This document shows positions 3,611 through 23,379 of a stretch of 29,625 nt of DNA, piece by piece. Location of the stretch: the IMG/VR virus record IMGVR_UViG_3300023179_003211, positions 1 to 29,625 of that record. One strand, given 5' to 3'. The notes under the pieces were generated by a model, which saw nothing but the letters and a program-made list of their open reading frames with translations, searched no databases and was not told the DNA's origin. This DNA comes from a virus. A program made the translations under genes and the position numbers. Position 1 is the stretch's first letter. Each line of letters starts with the position of its first letter.

Positions 3611-4541
3611 TTTAGTTGATATAAGTGACCTTGATGTAATATTCTTAAGTTATAAAGAAACCAATGCTGATAGCAATTGGTCTTATGTTCGTAGTTTTGT
3701 TCCATGGGCAAAGCGTGTTCATGGTATAGAAGGAAGCGATGCCGCACATAAAGCCGCAGCTGCTGCAAGCGAAACAGAAAGATTTATTCTTATTGATGGT
3801 GATAATCAACCAAATCCAGAATTTTTTAATCAACAATTAAGACTTAATGATGAGAATAGTGAATGTGTATTTCGCTGGCGTGCAAAAAATCATATTAATG
3901 GATTGTGTTATGGAAATGGTGGTTTAAGCAGTTGGACTAAAACCTTTGTTAATAACATGCGAACTCATGAAGCAAGTGATGGAAATACCGAAACAGCAGT
4001 TGAGTTTTGTTATTTTCAAAGCTATTGGGCTATGCATGATGTTTGGAGTATAACATCACCAAATGGCAGTCCACAACAAGCATGGCAAGCAGGTTTCCGT
4101 GAAGGTGTTAAACTGTGCCTTGACCGTGGTCGACGTGTAAATCCAGAAGAATTTGAAAAAGCAACTTGGTTAGGAAATCGCACAAATCTTGTTATTTGGT
4201 GTAGTATCGGTGCTGATGTTGAATATGGCAAATATGCAATGCTAGGTGCTCGTCAAGGTGCTTATAAAACTATGTTTGATGATGATTGGGATTATACCGA
4301 AGTTCGTGATTTTGATAAGTTAGAAAATATTTGGAATGATAGTTTAGAATATGGTGATAAAGAAAGTGAAACATTTGCAAGAATGTTGCGTAAACGTTTA
4401 AATCTTGATATAGTTACTTTTAATGCTGAACAAAGTAAATGGTTTAAAAATCATCAGCGAACATACCAGAATATTGATATTATGTTACCAGAAAGAGATG
4501 TAGGAAATGTCATCCGAAGTGCTGCTAGACAACTCTGGTGA
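3603..4541 (+). CDS. Glycosyltransferase-like protein with DGD motif
   Basis: This is a 312-aa protein. It opens with a strand ending V-I-F-L-S-Y (residues 12-17), then V-H-G-I-E-G-S-D-A-A-H-K-A-A and F-I-L-I-D-G-D-N, where D65-G-D67 is placed like the metal-binding DxD of GT-A transferases. The order (strand, H-G-x-x-G-x-D-A, helix, DGD) resembles a family of putative glycosyltransferases I associate with T4-like phages. A later W-x-A-G-F-R-E-G-V-K-L segment is shared with the last gene of this operon (12128-13687), which repeats this domain without the DGD. The gene begins within the preceding one, and the radical SAM gene starts 35 bases before its end, so it belongs to the same transcription unit. 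Substrate unknown. Confidence 0.6.
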   Translation: MSNLVDISDLDVIFLSYKETNADSNWSYVRSFVPWAKRVHGIEGSDAAHKAAAAASETERFILIDGDNQPNPEFFNQQLRLNDENSECVFRWRAKNHINGLCYGNGGLSSWTKTFVNNMRTHEASDGNTETAVEFCYFQSYWAMHDVWSITSPNGSPQQAWQAGFREGVKLCLDRGRRVNPEEFEKATWLGNRTNLVIWCSIGADVEYGKYAMLGARQGAYKTMFDDDWDYTEVRDFDKLENIWNDSLEYGDKESETFARMLRKRLNLDIVTFNAEQSKWFKNHQRTYQNIDIMLPERDVGNVIRSAARQLW

Positions 4542-5946
4542 TGTTGCCACAGTTAATGAAGATAGAACTTTAAAAAGCAATTTCCTAACTGCCGCAGAAA
4601 AAATGCAGCAACAGTTAGGCAATTCACTTTGCCTTGCAAAATGGATGCAAACAAGTTTGCACCTGACAACAGGTCATACTAATAGTTGTTACCATCCACC
4701 ACTACATAGGATAAATCCAGATGATCTTACCAATAACCCCAGTGCACTCCACAACACTGAATTTAAAAAAACGCAAAGACAGCGAATGTTACGTGGAGAC
4801 CGTCCAGAAGAATGTAGCTATTGTTGGAGAGTTGAAGCAACAGGAAACTTATCAGACCGACATTACAGATCGGGAGAACCTTGGGCTGGTAATAAGTATA
4901 ATGAGATTCTTATTCAAGACCCCTTAACTTGGAATGTAAATCCATCTTACGTTGAAGTTAATTTTAGTAATGTTTGTAACTTACAGTGTAGTTATTGTTC
5001 GCCACAATTTAGTAGTGCGTGGCAAAAGGAAATAAATGAACACGGTGCTTATCCTACTTCTAATTCCCACAATAGTCCTTCTTACTTTACTACTGATCGT
5101 AGAGTTATACCAAACAGGGAAAGTAATGTTTATGTTGATGCGTTCTGGCGATGGTGGCCCGAACTCTACCCAAACCTAAAACATTTTCGTATGACAGGTG
5201 GTGAACCGCTGCTTGACAAAAACACGTATCGTGTATTTGATTATGTTTTAGACAATCCTAAAAAAGATTTACATTTAAACGTTACCAGTAATTTAAGTCA
5301 GGATGAATATGTGTTTGACAAGTATCTTACCTATGTCAAGCATATGTGCGGTAATCATGTGCTAGAGCATTTCATGCAGTTTGTCTCTATCGACGGATAC
5401 AGAGAACGTGCTGAATATGCTCGCCATGGTCTTGATTTTAAACTTATGCAATCTAATGTTGAAAAATTTCTAACAGATATACCAGGTCGTAACAGCATAA
5501 CTTTTATCATTACAATGAATGTGCTAAACATCACGAGTCTTAAAGAATTAATGCAATGGATTCTTGAACTTCGTGCCAAGTATAATACAACTTACCAACG
5601 TGTTTGGTTTGATACACCGATATTGCGTGAACCAGCATGGCAGTGCATTGATATACTACCAGAAAGTTATGCTTGGTTCTTACAAAATATTGTTCAATGG
5701 ATGCAACCACAAGTAGAAACCATTGATACACGATTTAACGGATTTAAAGATTATGAAGTAACTAAATTACAACGTGTTGTAGATTGGATGCATGAACATC
5801 ACCGTGAAGATACTAACACCATGGCAGATTTTTATCGCTTCTTTGCTGAACATGATCGTCGTCGTAAAATTAATTTTTTACAAACCTTTCCAGAAATGGT
5901 AGAGTGGTGGGATAATTGCAAATATTGGGCAGATAATGCGAAGTAA
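4507..5946 (+). CDS. Radical SAM protein with N-terminal twitch-like cysteine domain, copy 1 of 5
   Basis: This is a 479-aa protein. The radical SAM [4Fe-4S] motif is C157-NLQ-C161-SY-C164, preceded by a strand (VEVNFSN) and followed by R-M-T-G-G-E-P, the SAM-binding GGEP motif. An N-terminal cysteine domain carries C42, C61 (in S-C-Y-H-P) and C103-SY-C106-W, spaced like a SPASM/twitch auxiliary cluster but placed before the barrel. The C-terminus ends with D-R-R-R...NF-x-x-x-FPE...W. Such enzymes cleave S-adenosylmethionine to start radical chemistry on peptides or small molecules; the substrate is unknown. It is the first of five tandem paralogues and is closest to the next one. It overlaps the upstream gene by 35 bases. 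The first 35 residues are poorly conserved, so a later start is possible. Confidence 0.9.
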   Translation: MSSEVLLDNSGDVATVNEDRTLKSNFLTAAEKMQQQLGNSLCLAKWMQTSLHLTTGHTNSCYHPPLHRINPDDLTNNPSALHNTEFKKTQRQRMLRGDRPEECSYCWRVEATGNLSDRHYRSGEPWAGNKYNEILIQDPLTWNVNPSYVEVNFSNVCNLQCSYCSPQFSSAWQKEINEHGAYPTSNSHNSPSYFTTDRRVIPNRESNVYVDAFWRWWPELYPNLKHFRMTGGEPLLDKNTYRVFDYVLDNPKKDLHLNVTSNLSQDEYVFDKYLTYVKHMCGNHVLEHFMQFVSIDGYRERAEYARHGLDFKLMQSNVEKFLTDIPGRNSITFIITMNVLNITSLKELMQWILELRAKYNTTYQRVWFDTPILREPAWQCIDILPESYAWFLQNIVQWMQPQVETIDTRFNGFKDYEVTKLQRVVDWMHEHHREDTNTMADFYRFFAEHDRRRKINFLQTFPEMVEWWDNCKYWADNAK

Positions 5947-7294
5947 AAAAACTGATGAATCTTTTTTAGAATATAAAAAACGTGTTCTTGATACCAAAAG
6001 TGCATCATTTTGTGGTGCTAAATGGTATAATGCAACCATTTGGCTTGGTAGTGGACAAACGACAAGTTGTCACCATCCGCTGCCACACTCTATTCCACTT
6101 GATAAGTTAGCAGACAATCCAAGTGCAATTCATAACACTGGCCAAAAGAAAATGGAACGTTTTATGATGCAGACTGGACAGAGACCAAGTGGTTGTGAAT
6201 ACTGTTGGCGCATTGAAGATAGTAGTGCAAATGCTATCAGTGATCGTCCTTACAAAAGTATGATATATAGTGAAGAAGAATTAAACACAGCATTTAAATT
6301 ACCAAGTGATACTGACGTAAACCTTCGCACACTGGAGATAGCCTTTGATCGCACTTGTAACTTTGCTTGTAGCTATTGTAATCCCGCTTTTAGTACTACT
6401 TGGGTTAAAGACATTAAAAATAATGGACCATACAATAATTTGGTTAGTGATGGTCGCAATCATTTTACCCATTTACATGATAATTCTCAGCTATATGGGT
6501 TTACTGATACAAATCCATATGTAGAAGCGTTCTTTAAATGGTGGGAAACTGATCTACATAAGATACTGCGTGAATTGCGTATAACTGGTGGTGAACCACT
6601 TATGAGTGGTCACACATGGAAGCTGCTTGATTGGTTTAAAAACAATCGTGGTAAAAGCCAAACTAAACTTGCTATCAACAGCAATCTTGGACTTGAACGA
6701 GAAAAACTAATAGAGTTTGTAGATAAGATTCGTGACTTACCACATGTAGAAGTTTATACAAGCTGCGAAGCATTTAAGGAACAAGCAGATTATATTCGTG
6801 ATGGATTAAATTATTATAAATGGTTTGATAATTTAGTTTATCTACAAAAAAGCGGTGCAGTGAAACAGCTACATGTTATGGCAACTATAAATGGTTTATG
6901 TTTGTTATCGCTACCAGATTTTCTTGAACATATGATGGATTTTAAAATGGGTTACGGTCGTGATAGTTTAACTGTTACACTTAACATTTTACGTTTCCCA
7001 AGTTTTCAAAGTCCAGTTGTAATGCCATATGGTATCAAAGAAGAATGTGCTGTTGCTCTTGAAAAATTTTTAGAAAAACATGAACATGGAAAATATTTGC
7101 ATCAAATGGAAATTGAACATGTAAAGAGATTAGTTCAATACCTACGCAACGCAACTATTCCACATGAAGGCGCAAGTCATATTGATATTTTAGAACGAGA
7201 TTTTAAAAACTTCTATGAACAGTATGACCAACGCCGTAGTAAAGATTTTATAAAAACATTTCCTGTTTTGGAATATTGGTATAATGGTTTATAA
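5936..7294 (+). CDS. Radical SAM protein with N-terminal twitch-like cysteine domain, copy 2 of 5
   Basis: This is a 452-aa protein. The cluster motif is C141-NFA-C145-SY-C148, with R-I-T-G-G-E-P downstream. The N-terminal domain has C26 (F-C-G-A-K-W), C45 (S-C-H-H-P) and C87-EY-C90-W-R. It shares with copy 1 the A-K-W motif, the N-P-S-A-x-H-N-T segment and a single Cys followed by His where copies 3-5 have a Cys pair. These two therefore form a subgroup. The C-terminus again has D-Q-R-R-x-x-x-F...TFP. The start overlaps copy 1 by 11 bases, and its end is overlapped by copy 3. Enzyme class is certain from the motifs; reaction and partner are not known. Confidence 0.9.
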   Translation: MRSKKTDESFLEYKKRVLDTKSASFCGAKWYNATIWLGSGQTTSCHHPLPHSIPLDKLADNPSAIHNTGQKKMERFMMQTGQRPSGCEYCWRIEDSSANAISDRPYKSMIYSEEELNTAFKLPSDTDVNLRTLEIAFDRTCNFACSYCNPAFSTTWVKDIKNNGPYNNLVSDGRNHFTHLHDNSQLYGFTDTNPYVEAFFKWWETDLHKILRELRITGGEPLMSGHTWKLLDWFKNNRGKSQTKLAINSNLGLEREKLIEFVDKIRDLPHVEVYTSCEAFKEQADYIRDGLNYYKWFDNLVYLQKSGAVKQLHVMATINGLCLLSLPDFLEHMMDFKMGYGRDSLTVTLNILRFPSFQSPVVMPYGIKEECAVALEKFLEKHEHGKYLHQMEIEHVKRLVQYLRNATIPHEGASHIDILERDFKNFYEQYDQRRSKDFIKTFPVLEYWYNGL

Positions 7295-8555
7295 TTATAA
7301 TGGCAAAGAACCAATCAATATTGCCGTTGATGATCTAACAGATGCTCAAAAACATTTGATATTTGAGAACAAATCATTTTGTATGTATCCTTGGCTACAT
7401 CTTCATGCATTTCCAACAGGAGAAGCGTATCCGTGTTGTAATACTGAAATGCCTGAACTTGTAGGAAACACTCGCCATAACACATTAGAAGAAATTTGGC
7501 ATGGAACAAAGATGCAAGATGTTCGTAATAAGATGCTTGCTGGTGAACACGTAAAGGGTTGCAGTCGTTGTTATGAACAAGAAGACAATGGCTTCTTTAG
7601 TATGCGTATGAGTGCCAATAAACATTTTGGACATCACATTTCATTAACCGATAATCCAACACCACCAATGAAAATGATTTATTGGGATATACGTTTTAGT
7701 AATTTATGTAATCTCCGTTGTCGCAGTTGTGGACATATCTTTAGTAGTAATTGGTATGATGATCAAATTAAACTTGCTGGACAAGATTGGGCAAAAAATA
7801 ACACACGTATTAACTTTGCTGGTCGTAGTGAAGATGATATTTGGAATCAGCTTGAACCGCAAATTGATAACCTTGAACAAGTTTATTTTGCTGGTGGCGA
7901 ACCACTTATCATGGAAGAACATTATCGCTTACTTAAAGAACTTATCAAGCGTGGTCGTCATGATGTTAGATTAATATACAATACAAACTTTACCCAAACT
8001 GTTTACAAAAAAACCAATGTATTTGAACTATGGCGTGAGTTTAAAAGTGTAAGTGTTGGCGCAAGTTTAGATGCGATGGGTAAACATGCCGAGTATATTC
8101 GCAAGAATACAGTGTGGGCGGATGTTGAGCGTAATCGTGAAGAAATGTTAAAGATTTGCCCACGTGTAGATTTCTATATAAGTCCTACGTTAAGCGTTAT
8201 GAATGCATTACATCTACCAATTTTTCATCGTGATTGGGTAGAACGTGGATTTTTAAAACCACAAGATTTAAATATTAATATATTGCAAGACCCGCCTCAT
8301 TATCGCATTGACATATTGCCATTCCAATACAAAGTTGATATTCAAGAACTTTACTTGGAACACATTGATTGGCTTAAACCCCAAGATCACCTTAAACGAG
8401 CAACAACTGGATTTGAAAGTGCTATCAACTTTATGATGGCAGATGATAAAAGTAAATTAATACCAAAATTTATTGAAAAAACTATTAAATTAGACAAAAT
8501 ACGTAATGAAAATATAATGGAATATATACCTGAAATGAGATATATGTATGAGTAA
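7284..8555 (+). CDS. Radical SAM protein with N-terminal SPASM/twitch-like domain, copy 3 of 5
   Basis: This is a 423-aa protein. The radical SAM cluster is C142-NLR-C146-RS-C149-G, followed by Y-F-A-G-G-E-P. The N-terminal domain reads C33-x-x-P-W...G-x-x-x-P-C51-C52...L-E-E-I-W...C93-SR-C96. This is the classical SPASM/twitch layout (C-x-x-P-W, paired Cys, EIW, C-x-x-C), which in most enzymes follows the barrel but here precedes it. After the barrel comes a C-terminal helical tail ending Y-I-P-E-M-R-Y-M. The start overlaps copy 2 by 11 bases, and the next start lies 8 bases before its stop. I recall an NCBI family of radical SAM proteins with an N-terminal twitch domain that this would fit. 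Substrate unknown. Confidence 0.92.
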   Translation: MVYNYNGKEPINIAVDDLTDAQKHLIFENKSFCMYPWLHLHAFPTGEAYPCCNTEMPELVGNTRHNTLEEIWHGTKMQDVRNKMLAGEHVKGCSRCYEQEDNGFFSMRMSANKHFGHHISLTDNPTPPMKMIYWDIRFSNLCNLRCRSCGHIFSSNWYDDQIKLAGQDWAKNNTRINFAGRSEDDIWNQLEPQIDNLEQVYFAGGEPLIMEEHYRLLKELIKRGRHDVRLIYNTNFTQTVYKKTNVFELWREFKSVSVGASLDAMGKHAEYIRKNTVWADVERNREEMLKICPRVDFYISPTLSVMNALHLPIFHRDWVERGFLKPQDLNINILQDPPHYRIDILPFQYKVDIQELYLEHIDWLKPQDHLKRATTGFESAINFMMADDKSKLIPKFIEKTIKLDKIRNENIMEYIPEMRYMYE

Positions 8556-9747
8556 TTTTTGTATATTGCCATGGATTAGCATTGAAACAACACCACTTGG
8601 TCAGATGAGAGTTTGTTGTTTGTCAAATGAAAATATTAAAAATTCTCAAGGAAAAGACTTTCTTATAGAAAATACCACGCTTTCAAATGCGTTCAACAGC
8701 GATTATATAATTGATCTTCGTAAATCTTTTATAAAAGGTGAAAAACCAAAATCATGTAATCGTTGTTGGAGTGAAGAAGAGAGCGGAAGAACAAGCAAAA
8801 GACAAAACAGTTGGCACCGTTTAAAAAATTTAGTAAAGCATATAGATTTTTCTAATCCAAATAATGGAGATTTAATATTTCTTGATTTAAAATTAGGTAA
8901 TATTTGCAACTTAAAATGTAGAATATGCGGTAGTTTTAGCAGTTCAAAGTGGGCACAAGAAGAAATAGAAATTAATAAAAACTATCAATCAGAATATCAT
9001 AGACCTGCTAATGATTTTCTTAAACAAGGTCAATGGCCTCGTAAATTTGATGCTTTTTGGAATGATTTGAATTTAATATTACCACAGATTCGCTATCTTG
9101 AATTTACAGGTGGAGAACCATTTCTTATTAGTGAACATTTTGATTTCTTACAAGCTGCTATAGATGGTGGACATGCATCACAAATTGAAATACATTATAA
9201 TACAAACGGTACACACTTCCCATCAAATGGTCCAGATTTATGGAAACATTTTAAACTTGTAGAGATAGCACTTAGCATTGATGATATGGGTCCACGATTT
9301 GAATATCAACGATATGGTGCAAATTGGAATAGCGTAAACAAAAATTTAAATAAATTTAGACAATTGCGAGACCAAAATAGTAATATTATTTTACAGTTAT
9401 GTTTAACAGTAAATGCACTAAATTTTTATTATATTGATGAGATACTACGTTGGGTTCCTAATCAAATGTTTAATTATCATTATCTTAATGTAGTTCACGA
9501 TCCTTTTCATTTCTGTATTAAACATTTGAATGATAATGCTAAAAAATTAATTACTGATAAGTTATCAGCTGCAGAAATTCCAAGTATTTTTTCTAACGAA
9601 ATTCAAAATTTAATTCAATTTATGAATAGCGGTGATAGTACAAATTGTTCATATCTTAAACAAATTTTACAAGATAGTGATGTATTTCGTAAACAGCATC
9701 TTAAAGATCATCATCCAGAAATAGCGGCGGCAATTGGTTATGAATGA
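8548..9747 (+). CDS. Radical SAM protein with N-terminal SPASM/twitch-like domain, copy 4 of 5
   Basis: This is a 399-aa protein and the most AT-rich of the five by eye. The cluster motif is C120-NLK-C124-RI-C127-G, followed by E-F-T-G-G-E-P. The N-terminal domain begins almost at the start codon: C5-I-L-P-W, then C23-C24 and C70-NR-C73-W. It lacks the extra leader present in copies 1-3. The start ATG overlaps copy 3 by 8 bases, and the stop overlaps copy 5 by 8 bases, so expression is coupled. The C-terminal region is shorter than in copies 1 and 2. The motif set is complete, so catalytic competence is likely; the reaction is unknown. Confidence 0.9.
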   Translation: MSNFCILPWISIETTPLGQMRVCCLSNENIKNSQGKDFLIENTTLSNAFNSDYIIDLRKSFIKGEKPKSCNRCWSEEESGRTSKRQNSWHRLKNLVKHIDFSNPNNGDLIFLDLKLGNICNLKCRICGSFSSSKWAQEEIEINKNYQSEYHRPANDFLKQGQWPRKFDAFWNDLNLILPQIRYLEFTGGEPFLISEHFDFLQAAIDGGHASQIEIHYNTNGTHFPSNGPDLWKHFKLVEIALSIDDMGPRFEYQRYGANWNSVNKNLNKFRQLRDQNSNIILQLCLTVNALNFYYIDEILRWVPNQMFNYHYLNVVHDPFHFCIKHLNDNAKKLITDKLSAAEIPSIFSNEIQNLIQFMNSGDSTNCSYLKQILQDSDVFRKQHLKDHHPEIAAAIGYE

Positions 9748-11032
9748 TTTTTGTTTAGCACCATGGACACATACATACATTTCTCCACAAGGTGAACGCA
9801 GACTGTGCTGTGCATCACGTGAGCCTGCACAAAATTTTAAACAATATATTGACACGGATGCAGCAGATGGTGAATTTAAACCCTTAACATTAGAGGAATG
9901 GTGGAATGGCGAACATGTTAGGAAAATTAGAAGAAAATGGTTATCTGGACAAGTCCCAAAAGAATGTGAAGTATGTGATAAAAAGTTACTTAACACTTCT
10001 GTATATCGGGATTACTTTGGGCATCTCTTTGGTCACTTACGGGGGGATATTATTTCTTCTACTGACAATGAAGGTTATACCACACTAACCCCAATTAGTT
10101 GGGATTATCGTTATAGTAATGTATGCAATTTCAAGTGTCGCATGTGCGGTGATATGTTAAGCAGTGCATGGGAAGTTGAAGTGCGTAAGAATGATATGGT
10201 TGACCTAAACAATCCAAAAAACTATTGGATGCAACCAAAGAATCGCCATGCTATTCGTGATTTTACTCGTGATGTAGTAATACCAGAATTTCGTCAAGCT
10301 ATAGAAAACAAAAATGTGCGTGAAATATATTGGGTAGGCGGTGAACCATTATTATATGATGAGCATTGGACATTCATGCGCCGTATTATTGAATTAGGTT
10401 ATGCAGAACAAGTTCGTGTAAGATATAACACAAATTTAAGTTATATAAAAGATAAAGATGGAACTCTTTGGGATTTATTACAACACTTTCCACATTGGGA
10501 AATATGTGCAAGTTTAGATGGAACGGGAGATATTGGTGAGTATATTAGAAGTGGTCTTAATTATAATGATTGGATTGATAATTTTAAACAAGGAATCCAA
10601 CAGCAGCGACATCCTCGCCAAATGCGTATTGATTTTACTCTTACTCTGCCTGGTTTATATGATCTGGCCAATATTATTTGTCTTGCTGATACTCTCAATG
10701 TTTCGCTATTGAGTAAAGTTGTATTTGCTTTCTCCCCTGATATTCTTTTAAGTCCATTAGCATTGCCTCGTAATATTTTAATTTCATTTATAGAAGATAT
10801 ACAGGAAAGTATTAAGCCGCTTATTACTCCTCGCACTCAAAGTTTATGGGATGTGTTAGAACACCTAAAAACTCGTCCTACGTTTGAAGAACAGTTTCCA
10901 CATACCTTTAAACAAGAAGCAATCAACGGTAAAAGGCATATTTTAAAATTGGAATATATCCGTAAAGATGTTAAAATAAAAATAGAAAATATATTAACTG
11001 GTGACGTTTTAGATTGGTGGAATAATATATGA
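9740..11032 (+). CDS. Radical SAM protein with N-terminal SPASM/twitch-like domain, copy 5 of 5
   Basis: This is a 430-aa protein. The cluster motif is C129-NFK-C133-RM-C136-G, with Y-W-V-G-G-E-P downstream. The N-terminal domain has C5-L-A-P-W, C23-C24 and C76-EV-C79. The open frame reaches a TTG at 9734, but the ATG at 9740 matches the start of copy 4 (M-[SN]-x-F-C) and overlaps the upstream stop by 8 bases, so I chose it. The C-terminus ends with L-D-W-W. An ATGA overlap at 11029 couples it to the unknown gene downstream. It is the last radical SAM enzyme of the series; substrate unknown. Confidence 0.9.
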   Translation: MNDFCLAPWTHTYISPQGERRLCCASREPAQNFKQYIDTDAADGEFKPLTLEEWWNGEHVRKIRRKWLSGQVPKECEVCDKKLLNTSVYRDYFGHLFGHLRGDIISSTDNEGYTTLTPISWDYRYSNVCNFKCRMCGDMLSSAWEVEVRKNDMVDLNNPKNYWMQPKNRHAIRDFTRDVVIPEFRQAIENKNVREIYWVGGEPLLYDEHWTFMRRIIELGYAEQVRVRYNTNLSYIKDKDGTLWDLLQHFPHWEICASLDGTGDIGEYIRSGLNYNDWIDNFKQGIQQQRHPRQMRIDFTLTLPGLYDLANIICLADTLNVSLLSKVVFAFSPDILLSPLALPRNILISFIEDIQESIKPLITPRTQSLWDVLEHLKTRPTFEEQFPHTFKQEAINGKRHILKLEYIRKDVKIKIENILTGDVLDWWNNI

Positions 11033-20232: not shown

Positions 20233-20260
20233 ATAATACCATAGATTTATGGGTTGTCAA
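20233..20260 (-). promoter_or_regulatory. Sigma-70 promoter for the metallopeptidase/VWA gene
   Basis: TTGACA (20260-20255), a 16-base spacer and TATTAT (20238-20233) lie on the - strand just ahead of the GGAG ribosome binding site. It is one of seven promoters of the same design on this strand, and shares the GC dinucleotide before the -35 box with three others. Confidence 0.8.
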
Positions 20261-20268
20261 GCATTATT

Positions 20269-21006
20269 TTAGGCTAAATTTACGCTTGCTCCGTTACAAA
20301 TTGGCAATAATTGCCCTGTAATATTCTTATTTTCAAGCAAAAATACCACCGATTTTACTATTTCCTGTTCATCTAAAACCGAATTTAATAGGGATTTTTT
20401 CTTATAATTTTCTATAATTTTATCAGTATTTTCACCAAATTTATCTTGTAATCTTGCGCTCACAAAACATCCTGGCAATAGTGCATTAACTCTAATGTTT
20501 GGAGCAAATTCTGCAGCCATTGATAAAGTAAGTTGATGTTCAGCAGCTTTTGCTACCCCATAAACCATGTTGTGACTAGGAGCAACTTGCAAACCAACTC
20601 TACTTCCTATATTAACAATTGCACCATTACTTGCTTCTAGATATGGTTTAGCTTTTAAACTTAACTCATATGGAACAATGACATTTATTAAAAATTCTCT
20701 ATTCCAATCTTCTCTTTTTATATTATTGTATTGTCCTACCGTGCTTGCATTATTAATTAATCCATCAAATTTACTAAAGTTTGGAAAATTATAAACATAA
20801 CTTATAAATTTATTTTGAATATTTGTATCAGTAATATCACCTTTTACAATTTGTAAATTATCACCAAAATAGTTTTTATAATCATACCATGCTTTATCTA
20901 TAGTACGACTGTTAATAACAACATTGTTATTATTTTTTAACAAATGTAATGCTACAGCACTTCCTATACCAGAAAAATGACCTGCACCTGTAATCCAATA
21001 AGCCAT
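20269..21006 (-). CDS. Short-chain dehydrogenase/reductase (SDR)
   Basis: This is a 245-aa protein. T6-G-A-G-H-F-S-G-I-G15 is the classical SDR cofactor motif T-G-x3-G-x-G, and Y-G-V-A-K is the catalytic Y-x-x-x-K. N-N-A-S (after L-I) corresponds to the N-N-A-G strand motif and N-I-G-S-R contains the catalytic Ser region. Length is typical of classical SDRs. It would oxidise or reduce a small substrate such as a sugar or lipid intermediate with NAD(P). It is clearly more AT-rich than the MoxR and VWA genes on either side and splits that functional pair, which points to insertion. A ribosome binding site (AAGGA) precedes the ATG; a terminator hairpin ends just before it. Confidence 0.88.
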   Translation of the reverse strand: MAYWITGAGHFSGIGSAVALHLLKNNNNVVINSRTIDKAWYDYKNYFGDNLQIVKGDITDTNIQNKFISYVYNFPNFSKFDGLINNASTVGQYNNIKREDWNREFLINVIVPYELSLKAKPYLEASNGAIVNIGSRVGLQVAPSHNMVYGVAKAAEHQLTLSMAAEFAPNIRVNALLPGCFVSARLQDKFGENTDKIIENYKKKSLLNSVLDEQEIVKSVVFLLENKNITGQLLPICNGASVNLA

Positions 21007-21018
21007 AATATATCCTTT

Positions 21019-21054
21019 AAAAAAGGGGGGAAGTGTTGCGGCACTACCCCCCTT
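21019..21054 (-). terminator. Rho-independent terminator after the MoxR gene
   Basis: On the - strand an AAGGGGGG...CCCCCCTT stem with an added TAGTG/CACTT arm (one internal mismatch) and a short loop is followed directly by six T. It lies about 75 bases after the MoxR stop and ends only 12 bases before the dehydrogenase start codon, so that gene would need read-through or regulated termination. Confidence 0.8.
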
Positions 21055-21056
21055 GT

Positions 21057-21127
21057 GTAGGGAAATTCACACTACTTTCCCTACCTTATCTCGCCCTCAC
21101 TGTGATGGAGAACGATAGGGGCGAGAT
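21057..21127 (-). other. Two further stem-loops between MoxR stop and terminator (structured leader/trailer)
   Basis: A perfect 9-bp stem pairs 21057-21065 with 21076-21084 (arm GTAGGGAAA). A second 9-bp stem pairs 21088-21096 with 21119-21127 (arm ATCTCGCCC), enclosing a small TCAC/GTGA hairpin and reaching into the MoxR stop codon. With the terminator just downstream this gives three successive hairpins in 120 bases, more than simple termination requires. Possible roles are mRNA stabilisation, attenuation or a small RNA; none can be chosen from sequence. Confidence 0.55.
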
Positions 21128-22254
21128 TAATCACGCACTGCCGCAAGGATGAAGTCACCGTTTTTAGCATGGTATTCCTTATAGTGTTTCATCTTACTTG
21201 TCTTCATTGGCAACTTGTAGTTACGCAGAATAGTAGCAAGCATCATAACTTGCAATTCCGTATCCATGTTGTCAAGGAAAAAGCGGAACACGTTGTCAAG
21301 TTCATCGTGCCAAGCGGTATTCTCGATGTCCTTCATGCGTTCACCACCACGACGATCATAGCTATCCTTGAGTTCATAGCAACATGAAACGGTTAGCGAA
21401 TACTTAGCACCAATATCCTTGGCTTTAAGTTCCTTGACCTTGCCATTAAGAATATCGGTAGGGTTAGGCATCTGGCTTGCCACTTTGCGGTGTGCGGCAA
21501 ACTTGAGTGCAACACCTTCACCAACAGTGCCTGCAACAAGATCATTCAACTCAACATCTGCAAGGTCTTCTTGCAAAAGATCGCTAACAAATGACCACGA
21601 ACGAGGCGTAGCAAACGATGCACCACTTTGACGAGGATCAAAGTTGAACAAATCATTCTTGTTGCAAGTAACATATGCAACAACGTCAGGATTGATAGCA
21701 TGGTTCAATGCCCAATCATTCCACGAGTCAAAGTCAACACGCAAGTTCAAGTGAACAAAACGGTTGGCAAGTGGCGATGGCATACGATACACGACACCAC
21801 GGTCAGTGTCACGGTTACCAGCGGCAACGATAACAACATTGTCAGGAAGTTCATATGTGCCAACACGACGATTAAGAACAAGCTGATAAGCGGCAGCTTG
21901 CGTTGCTGGTGCGGCACTGTTCATTTCATCAAGGAACAACACGACAACAGGATACTTGGCAGCTTCTTCTGCTGTAGGCAAATCAGGCGGAGCATTCCAC
22001 ATGGCATTGCCAACGGTTGGGTTGTAGTAAAGAACACCTTTAAGATCGGAAGGGTCCATGAGTGCAAGACGCAAGTCATACAGCTTGCCGCCCATGCTTT
22101 CACAGATATCGGCAACCAGTTCGGACTTGCCAATGCCAGGAGCACCCCACAAGAAGATAGGACGTTTACGTTTCATACATACCATAATTTCACGCTTTGC
22201 AGAAGCGAGAGTAACGGTGCGCACTTCGGAAAGTGCTTCATTTGGTTTAGCCAT
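21127..22254 (-). CDS. MoxR-type AAA+ ATPase
   Basis: This is a 375-aa protein. Walker A is G37-A-P-G-I-G-K-S44, Walker B is V-V-V-L-F-L-D-E110, and sensor 1 is I-V-A-A-G-N147. The G-x-x-x-Y-N-P and M-N-S-A-A-P-x-T-Q-A-A-A-Y-Q-L-V-L-N-R-R segments are typical of the MoxR/BchI group, which works as an ATP-driven chaperone with VWA-domain partners. The partner here is the metallopeptidase/VWA gene at 18946-20208, now separated by the dehydrogenase gene. A consensus promoter and a GGAGAA ribosome binding site precede the ATG. Base composition is less AT-rich than in the surrounding genes, as for its partner. The role in the phage cycle is unknown. Confidence 0.92.
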   Translation of the reverse strand: MAKPNEALSEVRTVTLASAKREIMVCMKRKRPIFLWGAPGIGKSELVADICESMGGKLYDLRLALMDPSDLKGVLYYNPTVGNAMWNAPPDLPTAEEAAKYPVVVLFLDEMNSAAPATQAAAYQLVLNRRVGTYELPDNVVIVAAGNRDTDRGVVYRMPSPLANRFVHLNLRVDFDSWNDWALNHAINPDVVAYVTCNKNDLFNFDPRQSGASFATPRSWSFVSDLLQEDLADVELNDLVAGTVGEGVALKFAAHRKVASQMPNPTDILNGKVKELKAKDIGAKYSLTVSCCYELKDSYDRRGGERMKDIENTAWHDELDNVFRFFLDNMDTELQVMMLATILRNYKLPMKTSKMKHYKEYHAKNGDFILAAVRD

Positions 22255-22283: not shown

Positions 22284-22311
22284 AATATACCATATTATTT
22301 GTAGTTGTCAA
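22284..22311 (-). promoter_or_regulatory. Sigma-70 promoter for the MoxR gene, with embedded stop codon of the upstream gene
   Basis: TTGACA (22311-22306), 16 bases, TATATT (22289-22284) on the - strand. The TGA inside TTGACA is the stop codon of the 79-aa gene upstream (stop at 22310-22308). The leader between -10 and the start codon is nearly identical to that of the next promoter. Confidence 0.85.
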
Positions 22312-23242: not shown

Positions 23243-23355
23243 TTTGCACCTTTATGCTTTGGTTTACGGGTATAGCTGCCCTTTCCCTTACGGGGGGTGA
23301 CAATTTTTTGACGGTATTTGGGGTCAGCCAATGACTTGGCAATAAGGCTACGCAT
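23239..23355 (-). CDS. 38-aa strongly basic phage protein
   Basis: The frame runs from an ATG at 23355 to a TGA at 23239 and gives M-R-S-L-I-A-K-S-L-A-D-P-K-Y-R-Q followed by a Lys/Arg-rich tail ending H-K-G-A-K. A consensus promoter (23380-23407) and a GGAG ribosome binding site directly precede it, and its stop overlaps the next ATG as ATGA, so it is a real gene despite its size. Short proteins with the M-R-S-x-I-A-K-x-L-x-x-P-K-[YF]-R-x-x-V start and a basic tail are familiar from T4-like phages. Its charge suggests nucleic acid or ribosome contact; no function is known to me. Confidence 0.75.
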   Translation of the reverse strand: MRSLIAKSLADPKYRQKIVTPRKGKGSYTRKPKHKGAK

Positions 23356-23379
23356 TGCTAGTTCTCCATCCATTTGCCT

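Follow-up and report, generated by a model that had tools for sequence, protein, structure and literature searches.

The window, which is the whole stretch of viral DNA analysed here (29,625 nt; IMG/VR record IMGVR_UViG_3300023179_003211), carries on its minus strand the gene order ArfA-like, p213, a 79-aa gene, MoxR, three hairpins, a short-chain dehydrogenase (SDR) and VWA; all features below lie on this strand unless stated otherwise. The message of the MoxR-type AAA+ ATPase gene (21127-22254; Pfam AAA/AAA_3, PHROG 1297) bears the element that is the subject of this work. A promoter-like site of MoxR, TTGACA-16-TATATT, is located at 22284-22311 (a consensus match only). The leader TGATGGAGAA serves as Shine-Dalgarno sequence of MoxR (22269-22260) also of the 79-aa gene (leader 22562-22553, gene 22547-22308). 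A GATGGAGAAC / GGATGGAGAAC leader lies at 23361-23370, ahead of the ArfA-like gene (23355-23239), and the VWA leader in the window is a weaker form of the TGATGGAGAA motif. The SDR gene occupies 20269-21006 (adh_short_C2, 4.4e-32) and is followed by the promoter-like VWA site TTGACA-16-TATTAT (20233-20260, by consensus), which adjoins the third hairpin in relatives that lack cargo. A terminator scan, which also overlooked the third hairpin, reported nothing convincing on the minus strand from the ArfA-like gene to MoxR; messages from three promoter-like sites should therefore all end in the three hairpins. The window holds no occurrence of the late-promoter motif TATAAATA, no Rfam match at gathering score and no tRNA match. 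The ArfA-like gene product, 38 aa long, is homologous to the ribosome-rescue factor ArfA (PF03889, E 1.7e-9), and the gene has an inverted repeat within its coding sequence (23277-23299). The arfA gene of E. coli has a hairpin within its ORF too. Five adjacent plus-strand ORFs (4507-11032) have cysteine motifs resembling those of radical SAM/SPASM proteins, which is unusual for a phage.

The hairpins fill the 120-nt gap between MoxR and SDR (21126-21007). H1 (21088-21127) has 9 perfect bp in its arms (21127-21119 and 21096-21088), and so has H2 (21057-21084; arms 21084-21076 and 21065-21057), which is missing from part of the clade. The stem of H3 (21054-21023) consists of 8 bp, a mismatch and 4 bp, six G residues (21052-21047) facing six C residues (21030-21025), and is followed by a T6 run (21024-21019) that ends 12 nt ahead of the SDR start codon at 21006. 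H3 with its T6 run (21019-21054) was named a terminator from its fold and U run, a generic terminator scan leaving this interrupted stem unlisted. The three-hairpin fold has an energy of -50.6 kcal/mol (z -4.68; none of 200 shuffles was equally stable) and is the most stable of 2360 segments of 133 nt on both strands. The gap, the two perfect 9-bp stems and the G6/C6 terminator were thus correctly placed in a preliminary description of this DNA, in which the H1 loop and its match to upstream leaders were overlooked.

Comparison with related loci assigns the hairpins to MoxR. A scan with MoxR gave the best 80 matching loci, from which rare lineages may be absent; 34 of these, in which MoxR is at least 85% identical, count as close relatives (L001-L031, L034, L040, L046). 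VWA lies directly behind MoxR in 20 of these 34 loci, nine have a cargo gene between terminator and VWA (L040 and eight more, besides the window) and in the remaining five the contig ends ahead of VWA. In the gaps compared (31 loci) the hairpins are succeeded by a promoter-like TTGACA-16-TATTAT site. The cargo site behind the MoxR terminator is occupied by genes of at least four kinds: an SDR 53% identical to that of the window (L040), radical SAM (L012-L014, L031), a B12-type radical SAM with a second ORF (L015, L034) and minus-strand ORFs of ~370 aa (L009, L029). These cargo ORFs were read in L009, L012, L015, L029, L031 and L040, and the remaining loci were assigned by a near-identical gap. 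At the L016 contig end the MoxR end is duplicated in inverted orientation, probably an assembly artefact. In the more distant L224 and L231, the large ORF that follows lies on the opposite strand, so that the hairpin goes with MoxR there as well. Since relatives carry the hairpins followed by VWA, or by cargo in between, H3 is read as the MoxR terminator and the site behind it as a cargo site. By this comparison the three hairpins are taken as the 3' end of the MoxR message, not as a dehydrogenase element, and the dehydrogenase looks like cargo inserted behind the MoxR terminator. A ribosome binding site right behind the T run and the absence of a sigma-70-type promoter between H3 and SDR, both pointed out before, were seen again. 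Dependence of the dehydrogenase on read-through is plausible, L040 showing the identical order of terminator, ribosome binding site and SDR; among the matches listed, L040 is the only further relative with an SDR of this type. Read-through from MoxR would be the simplest source of any dehydrogenase message, and the putative expression is predicted to be weak, probably.

In the window, 10 nt of the H1 loop UUCUCCAUCA form a perfect complement to the Shine-Dalgarno leader of MoxR, TGATGGAGAA, the putative target. The loop segment involved, TTCTCCATCA (21103-21112), has a mean unpaired probability of 0.82. In 25 H1-bearing loci (19 distinct pairs) the longest complement between H1 and the own MoxR leader is 8-13 nt, mostly 12, and reaches at least 10 nt in all but L224 (9 nt) and L040 (8 nt). 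In the window's group the value is 10 nt; the window falls short of 12 nt through a CA insertion in its loop. The core costs 0-5 kcal/mol to open on either side, L025 having a partly occluded core at 5 kcal/mol, and these costs are low relative to the duplex energies of -14 to -22 kcal/mol, which makes loop-leader pairing plausible. The CTCC of the core would match many Shine-Dalgarno sequences, and part of the within-clade match is to be expected since main-clade sequences are near-copies. A candidate antisense gene opposite H1, whose ATG follows GATGGAG at 11 nt in L008 and L018, was dismissed because it is absent in L004, L025, L040, L231 and the window.

The 338-kb relative G001 contains the TGATGGAGAA motif eight times (reversed control: 0): one copy is the H1 complement, three lie in the MoxR cluster and four elsewhere, and each of those other than the H1 complement stands shortly upstream of a start codon. 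A complement to H1 of at least 10 nt was found at 6 of 2207 candidate starts, MoxR included, and the 10-nt MoxR self-match is the joint longest among 582 ORFs. This survey of starts was run by 20-kb pieces, genes crossing piece ends being missed, and the motif at 79686 was found by pattern search. The four out-of-cluster genes with a TGATGGAGAA leader (G001 39329, 79503, 79686 and 317910; loci L238, L240 and L252) are possible trans targets; the gene at 79686 has AGTCAACTGATGGAGAA in common with MoxR. In some relatives the motif also stands ahead of VWA. When IMG/VR was scanned for exact 15-mers of the loop, 120 stretches were obtained, by our estimate about the number expected by chance.

Loop and leader were found to change together. 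The pairs of L025 (TTTGATGATGGAG/CTCCATCATCAAA), L231 and L224 (TTGATGGAG) match over 13, 11 and 9 nt, respectively, with different stems and with flanks that differ on both partners. L282, with a MoxR 65% identical to that of L231, has a different leader, TTGGAGGTGC, in another Shine-Dalgarno context, and the hairpin just past its stop codon carries GCACCTCCAA, a 10-nt match to TTGGAGGTGC. In an 8x8 swap matrix the own pair was maximal or tied in every row; L025 scored 13 with its own leader versus 8 with main-clade leaders. Own MoxR pairs also differed from permuted ones in duplex energy (P 0.0016). H1 stems are wholly different between lineages, yet 7-12 bp are kept; these divergent stems were misaligned by MAFFT and were lined up from the loop by a script, and the H3 alignment A2 was excluded from the pair counts. 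In L224, L231 and L025 the G6/C6 terminator is replaced by a hairpin farther downstream of H1 whose loop is G-rich. The ArfA-like leader of L040, GATGGAGACG, matches the loop CGTCTCCATC over 10 nt, both altered from the main clade, and the VWA leader of L025 forms a duplex of -19.2 kcal/mol with its loop. Pair permutation was weak for VWA (P 0.053) and for ArfA-like (P 0.24, a test weakened by a misplaced ArfA-like start in L002). The base preceding the T of the GATGGAG core (extension position -2) does not pair in the window's group, nor in L002 and L022; the extension test gave P 4e-4, a rough value with six lineages treated as independent. Because relatives keep the loop-leader match while the letters change, the message probably controls its own translation. 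Covariation in relatives (L025, L231, L224, L282), which had been suggested earlier as a check, lends support to the former proposal of a small RNA or regulatory mRNA end.

The match could also be a by-product of a shared Shine-Dalgarno motif at an ordinary 3' end, where H1 and H2 protect the mRNA and H3 terminates it. ATGGAGA-like leaders are indeed common in G001, and most distant MoxR genes are followed by a plain terminator. This explanation is unlikely in view of the lineage-specific co-changes outside the core, including the different Shine-Dalgarno context of L282, and of an excess over swapped pairs and other genes across the family of phage MoxR genes. For the family-wide test 216 loci were reduced to 201 usable ones (15 being too short or unmatched), 125 of them unique, and these were grouped via common 8-mers of leader and 3'UTR into 72 clusters. 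The score was the longest perfect complement between the own start region (-35 to +15) and the first 120 nt of the own 3'UTR. Own pairs reached at least 10 nt in 14, at least 9 nt in 18 and at least 8 nt in 29 of the 72 clusters, against 0.8, 3.0 and 10.1% of 5112 swapped pairs. None of 100,000 permutations attained the observed counts at the thresholds of 9 or 10 nt. At 10 nt or more, the reversed-leader control gave 0/72 clusters, sense-strand repeats of the leader were present in 3/72, and other ORFs of at least 120 aa in the same loci matched in 3 of 358 cases, one of which is the L025 MoxR read from an upstream ATG. A single one of 73 cellular MoxR genes had a match.

A match of at least 10 nt is absent in 58 of the 72 phage MoxR clusters and in all 11 cultured phages, in which the longest match is 9 nt (Atu_ph07, at nt 99 of the 3'UTR); for PA5oct, examined with a shorter leader, the value was 4 nt. 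Among the 18 matches of at least 9 nt, 16 touch positions -15 to +2. The match lies inside the terminator or other hairpins in L042/L045, L317, L328, L329, L336, L344 and L348, and elsewhere near the stop codon. The L349 match, well upstream of the start, is probably due to chance; it is counted within the 14 and was scored negative on the tree. On a tree of 68 clusters (4 of the 72 omitted) the trait needs 11 changes, at least seven of which are forced by well-supported branches, and 2 of 500 shuffles were equally clustered. All members of the branch holding the window, L025, L224 and L282 are positive. The sister MoxR genes of L298 and L302 have nearly alike 3'UTR motifs (TACTTGGGA and GTACTTGGG), of which one matches early codons and the other the leader.

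The data argue with good confidence for a model in which the MoxR 3'UTR exerts negative feedback on MoxR dosage. H3 would terminate the MoxR message, and the H1 loop would display a complement of the MoxR Shine-Dalgarno/start region. This loop may pair with the start region of the same message or of sister copies, either in cis or, as a 3'UTR RNA that ends in the terminator, in trans, and the pairing would block ribosome loading. With the ribosome site of own or sister messages covered, MoxR output would be self-limiting. We infer that the pairing occurs in cells, that it represses rather than activates, and that a free RNA of ~110 nt may be formed. A broader generalization is somewhat more doubtful than not: that phage MoxR mRNAs carry a self-targeting 3' lock and key that outpaces protein evolution, its letters being replaced and the match kept or regained, and that in the window's clade the RNA might in addition act in trans on the ArfA-like, 79-aa and VWA leaders and on four further ones.

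Complementarity and covariation fit equally well with an activating or stabilising 5'-3' contact that circularises or protects the message without repression, the sequence not giving the direction. Such a contact appears quite improbable, however, as pairing would cover the ribosome site or start codon touched by 16 of the 18 matches. A single protein binding repeated TGATGGAGAA sites in the DNA near promoters and at H1 would explain why the motif stands at a similar distance behind promoter-like sites and is inverted within H1; the stems kept with changed letters while the motif remains in the loop, and the matches that span start codons and coding bases in other lineages, make such an operator very improbable. 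The attenuator or read-through switch for the dehydrogenase proposed in the preliminary description, to which the terminator 12 nt ahead of a start codon without visible promoter gave rise (likewise in L040), is scarcely tenable with VWA directly behind the hairpins in 20 of 34 close relatives and an opposite-strand gene next in L224 and L231.

Self-pairing through the 3'UTR has been described in bacteria. In the icaR mRNA of Staphylococcus aureus a C-rich 3'UTR motif, 260 nt past the stop codon, pairs with the own Shine-Dalgarno region; pairing and RNase III cleavage were shown experimentally, and action in cis or trans was left open (PMC3868564). The MoxR element likewise has a 3'UTR segment complementary to its own Shine-Dalgarno sequence, with covariation of the partners, and may likewise act in cis or in trans. 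In Vibrio cholerae the 3'UTR-derived sRNAs OppZ and CarZ, for which RNase E processing was shown, base-pair with their own transcript and inhibit translation (PMC7398697). Similarly, the MoxR message would provide an RNA from its 3' end that targets the transcript itself, and it has an intrinsic terminator end (H3 and T6) and an accessible seed (the H1 loop segment). Unlike the cellular, experimentally characterized icaR, the MoxR element belongs to a phage gene, has its loop directly past the stop codon and turns over in sequence between lineages.

Among phages, the PHIKZ298 3'UTR ncRNA of jumbo phage PhiKZ has a length of ~100 nt and two stem-loops, of which the second may be a terminator, and was detected by Northern blot (PMC8545117). 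It resembles the MoxR element as a jumbo-phage 3'UTR RNA with stem-loops; its description, as far as consulted, names no target. The PeSLs of T4-like phages combine an intergenic stem-loop with an early promoter and are linked to gene shuffling (Arbiol 2010 and Comeau 2014, via PMC4503421). The hairpins followed by a promoter-like site and the exchange of cargo (VWA direct in 20/34, cargo in 9/34) are reminiscent of PeSLs, which differ in that their description in PMC4503421, as far as consulted, mentions no loop with complementarity to the upstream gene's start. T4 RegA is a protein repressor that occludes translation starts of phage mRNAs, and according to a review, no small trans-acting regulatory RNA from T4 had been functionally characterised (PMC3014915). 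Both RegA and, putatively, the MoxR RNA act at translation starts, RegA being a protein. A paper on a self-pairing phage MoxR mRNA was not found by title or abstract in the open-licence literature, subscription papers being outside the scope of this search.

Self-targeting 3'UTRs are known from few bacterial genes. The phage MoxR family adds a strong case from uncultivated large phages, built on sequence evolution within one gene family, with over a dozen natural loop/leader pairs that could be tested. The locus is also to be read differently, in that the terminator appears to belong to MoxR and the dehydrogenase to be cargo. The MoxR element may be an RNA counterpart of protein repressors such as RegA, and gives a hint that phage MoxR protein dosage is important.
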